A DNA stretch of 64,000 nt. Source: an uncultured Oligoflexia bacterium (GTDB lineage Bacteria; Bdellovibrionota; Bacteriovoracia; Bacteriovoracales; Bacteriovoracaceae). Under the pieces are notes generated by a model. The model was given only the letters and a program-made list of their open reading frames with translations, ran no database searches and had not been told where the DNA came from. Each line of letters opens with the position of its first letter. Position 1 is the first letter of the stretch. Position numbers and translations under genes: made by a program. Positions 9,425 through 24,670 of this stretch are shown here, in pieces. The DNA lies in assembly GCA_950061135.1 (NCBI GenBank), contig CATLVU010000001.1, positions 1-64,000 on the forward strand. The letters are read 5' to 3'.

Positions 9425-9712
9425 ATGCAAGTAAGACCATTACAAGACAGAGTTTTAATTAAAAGGCTTGAAGAAGAGACAACAACTGCATCAGGAATCA
9501 TTATCCCTGACAACTCAAAAGAGAAGCCAGCTGAAGGTGAAGTATTAGCAGTAGGTCCAGGATATAGAAATCAAGATGGTACTCTAAGAGAGCTTGATGT
9601 TAAAGTTGGTGATAAAGTTCTATTTGAAAAATGGGGCGGAACTGAAGTTAAAGTTGATGGTGAAGAGCTTTTAGTTATGAAAGAAGATAAAATCATCGGT
9701 GTTTTACAATAA
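9425..9712 (+). CDS. groES: Co-chaperonin GroES
   Basis: [18 protein letters not shown]...[12 protein letters not shown]; adjacent groEL; RBS AAGGAG. Confidence 0.98.
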
Positions 9713-9724
9713 TAAAAAAATTGA

Positions 9725-11380
<1,656 letters not shown>

Positions 11381-11491
11381 TTCAATCACGTGAAGTGATT
11401 GGACGGGTGAGTTCGGAATACTTACGTATTCGAAGACGAGCGTGATGCGAGTCGAACAGAACGAACCCAACTCGTATAAAATTCAAGTAAG

Positions 11492-11533: not shown

Positions 11534-11685
11534 AACTGACCTACAAGATTGGTGTTGATACTTTTGTAAATTACTGAGTTTATGGATTATTTAAGAGAAA
11601 TATCAGGCTGCCGGTTTTGGGTTGGTAATTCTTTTTATAATTGAACGGGTTAAGTTTTTATCAACACCATTGTTGTCAGGCAGTT
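11534..11685. repeat. ~152-bp element copy 1 with inverted ends (putative EBP-binding region)
   Basis: AACTGACCTACAAGATTGGTGTTGATA ... TATCAACACCATTGTTGTCAGGCAGTT; central GGCTGC at offset 72; matches copy at 24743. Confidence 0.75.
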
Positions 11686-11825
11686 TAAAAGTCTTAAGTA
11701 ATTTTTAACAACATACGGGATCAAAATGCTCCTGTATCAATCTTGGTGTCATTATTTCGACCTAAGTGTCACCAATAATTCAGACTAATTTACATCGACT
11801 CTATACAAATTAAACACTTAAGTTT

Positions 11826-11841
11826 TGGCACGATCTTTGCC
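11826..11841 (+). promoter_or_regulatory. Sigma-54 promoter (-24/-12)
   Basis: TGGCACGATCTTTGCC, GG-N10-GC; near-perfect match to TGGCACG-N4-TTGCW. Confidence 0.85.
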
Positions 11842-11851
11842 TTAGATATAA

Positions 11852-11925
11852 TGTGTCCAAGGAAGGACATTCGGCCCAAGGATGGGCCCATTAATTTTTT
11901 TTTAAAACTTAGGCAAGGATTGCCT
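11852..11925 (+). ncRNA. Candidate leader/sRNA with three GGA-loop hairpins; hairpin 2 plus T-run is terminator-like
   Basis: TGTCC-AAGGAA-GGACA; GGCCCA-AGGA-TGGGCC followed by TTAATTTTTTTTT; AGGCA-AGGAT-TGCCT. Confidence 0.6.
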
Positions 11926-11947: not shown

Positions 11948-12436
11948 GTGATCTTATCAACCGATAAGATCAATATGAAAGAGCAAGACAATTGGGTTTT
12001 CTATTTACAATTAAAGTCAAAGTTATCAAAAGACTTTCTAGTTTTAGATAGGGAGTTGAAAGATTACGGAAAGGGCCTAGTTCCGGTTTCAATAGAAAAC
12101 TTATTAGGTTATATAAAAAAGAAAGAAGGAATCGACCTTCTTGTTGTTGTAAAATCTAAAGCAGAAGCAAACTATTATAATAAAAGAATAAAAAAAGTAC
12201 TTCGCTATTTAATTTTATCTAAAAAAATACGTTTAACTTTAGTTTCTTCTTACCAAGACATAAATGATTTAACCTTGGCCAAGAAAGGGCATTATTTTTT
12301 TCATCAACTACCCATGAGTGTTTCATCGGTAGTATTTGAAATGATCTCAACAATACATGACAGGCAAGATAATAAAAATAAATGGCCTGGAGCTTCAAGG
12401 CCAAAAATGATGTTCTCGAGGTATAATGAGTCCTGA
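11948..12436 (+). CDS. Hypothetical protein (downstream of sigma-54 promoter; start could be 11975)
   Basis: ORF of 162 aa; GTG at 11948 or ATG at 11975. Confidence 0.6.
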   Translation: MILSTDKINMKEQDNWVFYLQLKSKLSKDFLVLDRELKDYGKGLVPVSIENLLGYIKKKEGIDLLVVVKSKAEANYYNKRIKKVLRYLILSKKIRLTLVSSYQDINDLTLAKKGHYFFHQLPMSVSSVVFEMISTIHDRQDNKNKWPGASRPKMMFSRYNES

Positions 12437-12815
12437 AAAAAAAATCTTTCAAGATCGCTATTTAGTTTTACTTAAAAACGATGTTATGGAGCTCTATGAG
12501 CGCATTGTCGAGAGACAAGATGAGTATATCGAGTTTTTTTCGCTTCATAGAGAAAGAGAAGGGTTTAAAGAAGTTTTTAGGAATCGTTTTTCAGAAGCTA
12601 CCATGTTTGATTTATCCCATCTACCAGTTGAAGTGATTGAATTGAGTCATGATTTTTATAAAGTAATCGACGATATTTACTGGTATATAATGCATACTCA
12701 AGATATGCCAAATACAATTCAAGATACCTTGGTTAAGCGACTTGGGCCTTTGAAGAAAAAGTATCAAAATCTCATTTTTTATATTGATGCCTCACTAAGT
12801 AACAGAACTGAGTAA
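12426..12815 (+). CDS. Hypothetical protein
   Basis: 129-aa ORF overlapping the preceding ORF by 11 nt. Confidence 0.6.
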   Translation: MSPEKKIFQDRYLVLLKNDVMELYERIVERQDEYIEFFSLHREREGFKEVFRNRFSEATMFDLSHLPVEVIELSHDFYKVIDDIYWYIMHTQDMPNTIQDTLVKRLGPLKKKYQNLIFYIDASLSNRTE

Positions 12816-23317: not shown

Positions 23318-23333
23318 AGCAATACTTGTGCCA
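23318..23333 (-). promoter_or_regulatory. Sigma-54 promoter for the 23285->21065 operon
   Basis: Minus strand TGGCACAAGTATTGCT, GG-N10-GC; predicted +1 ~23307, ~22 nt before the ATG. Confidence 0.85.
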
Positions 23334-23335
23334 AG

Positions 23336-24670
23336 TTAGTGGTGCATTGTTTCAAAAATACGATAAAATGCTGAAGAAGAAATTTTAAGTTCTCTAATTA
23401 CGTGAGTAATTTTTCCTTTGTGCTTTAACATTGAACTTTTTACACACTCTTCTTCAATTGTTCGCATAAAGTCTCGAAGACCATTTTGTTGTATGAAGTT
23501 TATTTGTGCAGGTGTTAAAAGTTGATTTGATCGCAAATTAATTTGTGTCGAGCAAGGTAGAATATCTTCAGCATCTATGATCCCTTCTGAGTTGAGGGTT
23601 AAAATATCGATAAACTTTTTTAGCTCTCGAATATTTCCAGGCCATTGCTTATCTATTATTTTTTCAAGGGCCTCTTCTTTTAGAACAACTCTTCGAGGTG
23701 ATTGTTTTAAAAAGTATTTTACCAGTAGTGGGATGTCTTTTTTTCTCTCTCTGAGGGGAGGAATATTAAGGTTTAGTCCTGAAATTCTGTAGTACAAATC
23801 TTGTCTGAATTTGCCATTGGCTATTTTTTCAAACAGGTTTTCACATGTTGCTGTTATGAGGGTGAATCGACTTTGAATAACTTGATTTGAACCAACAGGA
23901 CTGAAGCTTCCTGTTTCTATTGCTTGTAAGATTTTTTGTTGCATAGACTGTGACATTGTTGCAATTTCATCTAAAAACAATGTGCCATTATGGGCCTGTT
24001 CCAGCTTTCCCTTTTTCTGTGAAGTTGCTCCTGTAAAAGCACCTTTTTCATGGCCAAAAAGTTCAGACTCTATTAAATTCTCAGAAATTTCTGAGCAATT
24101 CAGATGTATAAATGGGGCATTGTCTGGATAATTATGTGAATGAAGAAAACGTCCAAGTATACTTTTACCAACTCCCGTTTCTCCTGTGATCAAGATTGTT
24201 TTTTCCCTTAAATCAATTTTACATAAGTTTTCGATTTGTTTTTTAAGTCCAGAGTGCTGAGTAATATAATTTTCTGAAAATAATTTCTCTAGCGGAGAGT
24301 CCTGATATTGTTTGATAAATTTTTGAATATAGGGTTTTAAGTGGGAGTTAAAACTCCGCTTTGCTAAAAAATGATTACAACCACTTAGGTAAGCTTTTTC
24401 TATTATTTTCTCATCAGTCTGTGAGCTAAGTGTGATTGTGTGGATTTTTTTGCTTTTAGCATATTTAAGAATTTCAATACCGGCTTCAGGTCCATCGATA
24501 TGCATATCAACTAGGGCCAGGTCAAAATGATTATTTTGAAGCAGCTTATGAGCTTTTAGACGGTCATCTGCTTCTGTGAATACTGCGATATCACTTAACA
24601 CTGTCTTAACAGCATGGCGAAAGTATTTATCATCATCGACTAATAATATGTGGATTGTGCCTCTTGTCAT
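23336..24670 (-). CDS. NtrC-family sigma-54-dependent response regulator (REC - AAA+ - HTH_Fis)
   Basis: REC HILLVDDDK...LALVDMHIDG; GETGVGKS Walker A; GAFTGA motif; C-terminal Fis-like HTH. Confidence 0.96.
   Translation of the reverse strand: MTRGTIHILLVDDDKYFRHAVKTVLSDIAVFTEADDRLKAHKLLQNNHFDLALVDMHIDGPEAGIEILKYAKSKKIHTITLSSQTDEKIIEKAYLSGCNHFLAKRSFNSHLKPYIQKFIKQYQDSPLEKLFSENYITQHSGLKKQIENLCKIDLREKTILITGETGVGKSILGRFLHSHNYPDNAPFIHLNCSEISENLIESELFGHEKGAFTGATSQKKGKLEQAHNGTLFLDEIATMSQSMQQKILQAIETGSFSPVGSNQVIQSRFTLITATCENLFEKIANGKFRQDLYYRISGLNLNIPPLRERKKDIPLLVKYFLKQSPRRVVLKEEALEKIIDKQWPGNIRELKKFIDILTLNSEGIIDAEDILPCSTQINLRSNQLLTPAQINFIQQNGLRDFMRTIEEECVKSSMLKHKGKITHVIRELKISSSAFYRIFETMHH

Follow-up and report, generated by a model that had tools for sequence, protein, structure and literature searches.

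The window (the whole 64-kb stretch of DNA that was analysed, from an 88.6% complete genome of a Bacteriovoracaceae-type bacterium) carries the following features, all on the forward strand, between and including its groE genes and a pair of downstream reading frames:

9425-11380, +, groES-groEL (Pfam Cpn10, Cpn60), the syntenic upstream neighbour
11745-11773, +, candidate enhancer (activator) sites GGTGTCAT and AGTGTCACC, with recurring TGTCA/TGACA
11826-11841, +, putative sigma-54 promoter TGGCACGATCTTTGCC, predicted +1 at ~11852
11853-11870, +, hairpin 1, GTGTCC-AAGGAA-GGACAT, an ANGGAN hexaloop (AAGGAA) with a C-G closing pair, assessed by fold, covariation and rarity
11873-11888, +, hairpin 2, GGCCC-AAGGAT-GGGCC, loop AAGGAT with a C-G closing pair
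11895-11903, +, T9 run starting 6 nt past hairpin 2, a possible weak terminator
11911-11925, +, hairpin 3, AGGCA-AGGAT-TGCCT, with GGA within a loop of 5-7 nt
11949-11972, +, perfect 10-bp inverted repeat overlapping the FliA -10
11961-11967, +, FliA (sigma-28) -10-like CCGATAA, which recurs before the start codons of homologues
11975-12436, +, ORF 11948, a conserved protein with a weakly receiver-like alpha/beta fold, likely true start ATG 11975
12426-12815, +, ORF 12426, next after ORF 11948

In g10, g62, g60 and g15 loci, too, the element is preceded by the end of groEL or by a groEL protein. Inverted repeats (e.g. TTGGTGTTGATA ... TATCAACACCA) occupy 11388-11470 and 11549-11675, between groEL and the sigma-54 element.

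A search of 59 relatives with the element's DNA sequence returned the self-match alone, so homologous loci were located by protein synteny; 17 of them have a sigma-54 site and GGA hairpins before an ORF 11948 homologue with no protease gene between. In these 17 loci the promoter is conserved at GG (-24) and GC (-12) with fixed spacing, TGGC being present in 17/17 and the G and C of the -12 element in 17/17 and 16/17, respectively, and rpoN is present in the genome. We consider it very likely from these comparisons that the element is driven by sigma-54. The TGTCA/TGACA motifs, candidate activator sites, lie 43-90 nt upstream of the promoter and, by k-mer count, recur in many class A loci. The perfect string TGGCACN5TTGC occurs twice in the 64-kb window; the second occurrence, TGGCACAAGTATTGC, is accompanied by a GGA-containing ribosome-binding site and follows a gene for an NtrC-family sigma-54 activator with receiver and AAA+ domains (23319-24670, - strand).

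Hairpins 1 and 2 fold as drawn in the 52 nt between the predicted +1 and the end of the T9 run (-18.7 kcal/mol, z -2.7), and their motif starts are 19 nt apart in the window and 19-24 nt apart in its relatives (10 clade-1 RNAs), which is near the distance that allows one CsrA dimer to bridge two sites. When ANGGAN hexaloops on stems of at least 4 bp including 2 GC are counted on both strands, the window contains 3, of which hairpins 1 and 2 make up two, against 1.3 in shuffles; a cluster of three occurred in no shuffle. A third GGA hairpin is also found in the g62 relatives. The element thus displays GGA in the loops of stable hairpins with the ANGGAN consensus, as CsrA-binding RNAs generally do, and the ANGGAN hexaloop closed by C-G is a feature of high-affinity RsmE targets (PMC7652899).

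Are these loops and stems maintained among relatives? In the first 100 nt after the promoter of the 17 homologous loci, 33 of 41 hairpins have GGA in the loop, where about 1.2 are expected in shuffles and 1 of 19 was found in upstream controls. A covariance model built from six of the 17 loci has 95% paired cells. In a set of 14 sequences, four of which come from a second sigma-54 leader family, 93.8% of the cells are paired, against 77% in shuffled and 30-51% in slid controls, and 8 of the 10 stem pairs are changed on both sides. Within the loops of the 10 clade-1 RNAs positions A1 and G3G4A5 are constant and N2 and N6 vary, in agreement with the ANGGAN rule of PMC7652899. The sequence-only reading had proposed a sigma-54 promoter followed by three CsrA/RsmA-type GGA-loop hairpins; its coordinates for all of these proved correct, and the comparison with relatives, in near-invariant promoter elements, retained GGA loops and covarying stems, bears the proposal out.

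The combined sigma-54/GGA pattern also matches within the coding sequence of dnaG and at ordinary ribosome-binding sites, and raw counts of it were therefore excluded as evidence. Scanned with an exact pattern, the genome collection yielded 41 matches, among which the Bacteriovoracales-type ones alone look real; the rest were rejected as coding sequence or repeats. Beyond the family, most matches were to flagellar genes that have a sigma-54 promoter and just one GGA.

The protein that such an RNA would bind is encoded in the genome, as the sequence-only reading needed it to be: csrA adjoins fliW, and its RNA-binding residues L4 and R44 are conserved relative to the E. coli and B. subtilis CsrA sequences. 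Each of csrA and fliW occurs in 124 of 132 family genomes, and in 74 of 75 good ones. On this comparative evidence the element is very probably a CsrA-binding RNA.

Of 117 family genomes, 102 encode a homologue of ORF 11948. The ORF has no Pfam match, and a fold search with it returned weak matches that indicated no function. In 61 of 84 homologous loci the motif CCGA(T/A)A stands ~7 nt ahead of the start codon, and it is the same motif as in the Bdellovibrio attack-phase FliA promoter, TTAAG-N16-CCGATA (PMC3627812). The window's -35 matches this promoter poorly. ORF 11948 thus appears to be transcribed from its own FliA promoter, and the positions of CCGATAA (11961-11967) and ATG 11975 suggest that the FliA transcript is leaderless and that the true start is ATG 11975, not GTG 11948. 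In the protein version that begins at GTG 11948, disorder is predicted for the first ten residues, before ATG 11975. Attenuation of ORF 11948 by the element, which had been put forward from the window sequence, is accordingly less likely than was stated, since the gene appears to have its own FliA-type promoter, with the start site at or beside the conserved ATG 11975.

Where the sigma-54 transcript would end was considered as follows. The T-run begins 6 nt beyond hairpin 2, and so makes a poor textbook terminator, yet a pattern scan scores it terminator-like. Neither this spacer-plus-T-run nor any other convincing terminator between the element and ORF 11948 was found conserved in the window's clade, and the suggestion that hairpin 2 terminates a ~50-nt sRNA is not supported, the spacer-plus-T-run being unconserved there. 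Readthrough into ORF 11948, ~120 nt downstream, is therefore possible in this clade. In g60, T7 immediately follows hairpin 2, within the leader. In g13 and g3 (L096) the RNA is longer, ~300-550 nt, and a strong intrinsic terminator lies between it and the ORF, so the predicted transcripts there show a free sRNA form.

The gene order in other genera points to the origin of the element. In 43 of 84 loci, from 19 genera, the gene immediately before the ORF 11948 homologue encodes a matrixin-like metalloprotease (Pfam PF00413). In all 17 matrixin-keeping genera sampled there is a sigma-54-like site ~1.0-1.4 kb before the ORF, and GGA-loop hairpins were called after it in 15 of the 17; the order in matrixin loci is element, GGA-rich ribosome-binding site, small exported protein, matrixin, ORF 11948. 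In most relatives the element is the conserved leader of a larger operon, which is invisible from the window alone. In the window's clade (g1, g62, g10, g18 and g36) the exported-protein and matrixin genes are absent at this place and the element lies 76-161 nt before the ORF (~400 nt in the exception, L005). A tree of ORF 11948 (155 columns, moderate support, g3 left out) splits the matrixin-less loci between two positions, one held by g13 and the other by the window's clade, and matrixin loci stand to either side. Since the matrixin-less loci split into two groups in the tree, the simplest reading is that the leader of an ancestral operon outlived its genes twice. Matrixins encoded elsewhere in the window's own genome (88.6% complete, as above) are similar at the catalytic motif only, and no sigma-54 site was found in their retrieved flanks.

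Two other candidates for long sRNAs, L098 and L123, were rejected, as they have coding genes inside and are operon leaders. The g13 long RNAs (L016, L020, L027, L076, L080 and L089) share a single-stranded CAUCCCUCUCUCCCU, which resembles an anti-Shine-Dalgarno pairing motif, and most have a small ORF after a conserved AAGGAG..AUG. We do not claim this small ORF as a relic of the exported protein, as all that the two share is a start region (AAGGAGCTT..ATG) and a faint resemblance between the proteins.

What might the element do in the window genome? We infer transcription, CsrA binding, decoy action and the transcript end from the sequences. The promoter, loops and covarying stems have been kept after the loss of the genes, so the RNA itself is probably under selection. 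We favour a decoy over a leader of ORF 11948, and think it rather probable that the element is a sigma-54-controlled CsrA-binding RNA which survived the loss of its operon and is now a small CsrA decoy beside FliW; the chances that it acts mainly in trans in the window genome seem about even. With an NtrC-type activator switched on, polymerase carrying RpoN would start near 11852, and the RNA would present two ANGGAN hairpins, spaced to fit one CsrA dimer, together with a weaker third site. The element is, in most of the family, the 5' leader of the exported protein-matrixin-ORF 11948 operon, whose translation is probably controlled by CsrA, because GGA motifs also surround the ribosome-binding site. 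In the window's lineage a short stand-alone transcript would remove CsrA from action during sigma-54 activity, alongside FliW as the protein antagonist, and ORF 11948 would be made mainly as a leaderless mRNA from its own FliA promoter. Against a decoy stands the small number of sites: with two or three of them, an RNA would need to be very abundant to titrate CsrA.

The alternative that survives best, though we think it unlikely, is that the element acts in cis, the sigma-54 transcript continuing through ORF 11948 while CsrA alters its readthrough, stability or translation and the FliA transcript is independent of CsrA. The element does stand directly before the ORF in the five genera of the window's clade and heads an ORF-containing operon in most other genera, the space between element and ORF has no conserved terminator, and T9 (like the g60 T7 right behind hairpin 2) could attenuate; but the long sigma-54 transcript has no Shine-Dalgarno before ATG 11975 and a strong inverted repeat just ahead of it, the FliA -10 is at a leaderless distance in the 61 loci noted above, and strong terminators separate RNA from ORF in g13 and g3. 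It is improbable that the element is a relic, the leader of a lost operon with no present function. The protein genes that it once served are indeed gone from this place, the genome's own matrixins match at the catalytic motif only and show no sigma-54 site in the retrieved flanks, and degraded or missing versions of the element occur in L012 and L013 (g18, g10), but genera whose ORF 11948 proteins are only 28-39% identical to the window's still have the promoter, the loops and the stems, which show compensatory changes. A sigma-70 promoter followed by GGA hairpins, with the sigma-54 match a coincidence, is more improbable still: TTGGCA-16-TATAAT (11 of 12 consensus matches) overlaps the sigma-54 site in the window genome, but this TATAAT is private to that genome and absent from the homologous loci, whereas 16-17 of 17 loci keep the -24/-12 elements, which makes sigma-54 the conserved feature.

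The favoured decoy has partial likenesses among known RNAs. CsrB/CsrC and RsmX/Y/Z of the Gammaproteobacteria are also intergenic and have repeated GGA (ANGGAN) stem-loops for CsrA/RsmA, but the window element has three sites rather than many, is related to an mRNA leader, has a sigma-54 promoter in place of GacA/UvrY control, and belongs to a FliW-bearing lineage. The best upstream match to the GacA/UvrY box TGTAAG-N6-CTTACA has 3 mismatches and is 300 nt away, and better chance matches occur elsewhere in the window. McaS of E. coli is a short CsrA-titrating sRNA, and ~2 GGA sites can in principle titrate CsrA; unlike McaS, the window RNA has no known base-pairing part, and it has a different promoter and an unrelated sequence. 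The CrcZ/CrcY RNAs of Pseudomonas are sigma-54-dependent decoys that target Hfq/Crc through A-rich motifs, and are thus similar in being sigma-54/activator-controlled RNAs that soak up a global post-transcriptional regulator, whereas the window RNA would use GGA hairpins for CsrA. The TwoAYGGAY motif (RF01731) consists of two hairpins with NGGAN-type loops; the window element differs from it in being unmatched in Rfam, in having no enclosing stem and in its sigma-54 promoter. No Rfam match in the window reached the gathering score and the Csr/Rsm families were unlisted to E = 10; miRNA and snoRNA matches at loose E-values were dismissed as chance. The CsrA-FliW-flaA leader system of Campylobacter jejuni (PMC4894983) likewise combines FliW, CsrA and a CsrA-binding mRNA in a non-gammaproteobacterium, and sRNA antagonists are described as absent there; here, in contrast, the GGA-hairpin RNA persists without its coding genes.

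We found no paper on CsrA-antagonist RNAs in Bdellovibrionota in the open-access literature, and sRNA antagonists of CsrA were still called principally gammaproteobacterial in 2026 (PMC13407953). If the decoy reading is true, CsrA would have dual RNA and protein antagonists outside the Gammaproteobacteria. More tentatively, a decoy sRNA may have been born when a leader controlled by sigma-54 and CsrA lost the coding genes that followed it, apparently twice in this one family (in the window's clade and in g13), to act jointly with FliW; a traceable mRNA leader that persists past gene loss would be a route to new regulatory RNAs. With csrA and fliW carried by almost every complete genome sampled, and with a widespread sigma-54-linked GGA-hairpin RNA, the question of antagonism is directly testable in this family, and the co-presence of the two genes bears on a question left open by PMC7652899.

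Other GGA-hairpin arrays were observed as follows. A second sigma-54 promoter with 3-4 GGA-loop hairpins lies at G000:C118:3713-3791 (-) (L167; also L175, L177 and L180); the L167 leader precedes a 43-aa membrane microprotein (MEFSDLNMTLSLILLLGFGSSLIHYSAYAKNKVRVEIRSKNKN), has relatives in g10 and g62, and is a candidate CsrA-controlled leader. Luteimonas genomes (L192, L195, L199-L201, L204, L212, L216, L223 and L227) have multi-copy palindromes, several per genome, in which two AUGGAU-loop hairpins sit in a long outer stem; they resemble TwoAYGGAY more than the window element does and are possible dispersed CsrA/RsmA-binding repeats. At G000:C55:8503-8565 (L168), the 3' UTR behind a gene for a Bor-like lipoprotein contains two or three GGA-loop hairpins, the last of which is an intrinsic terminator (GGCCAAGGATGGCC-TTTT); such hairpins are also present in L172-L174, L185, L157, L158, L161, L186 and L151 (genera g1, g62, g36, g24 and g5), and this 3' UTR is a possible CsrA sponge.
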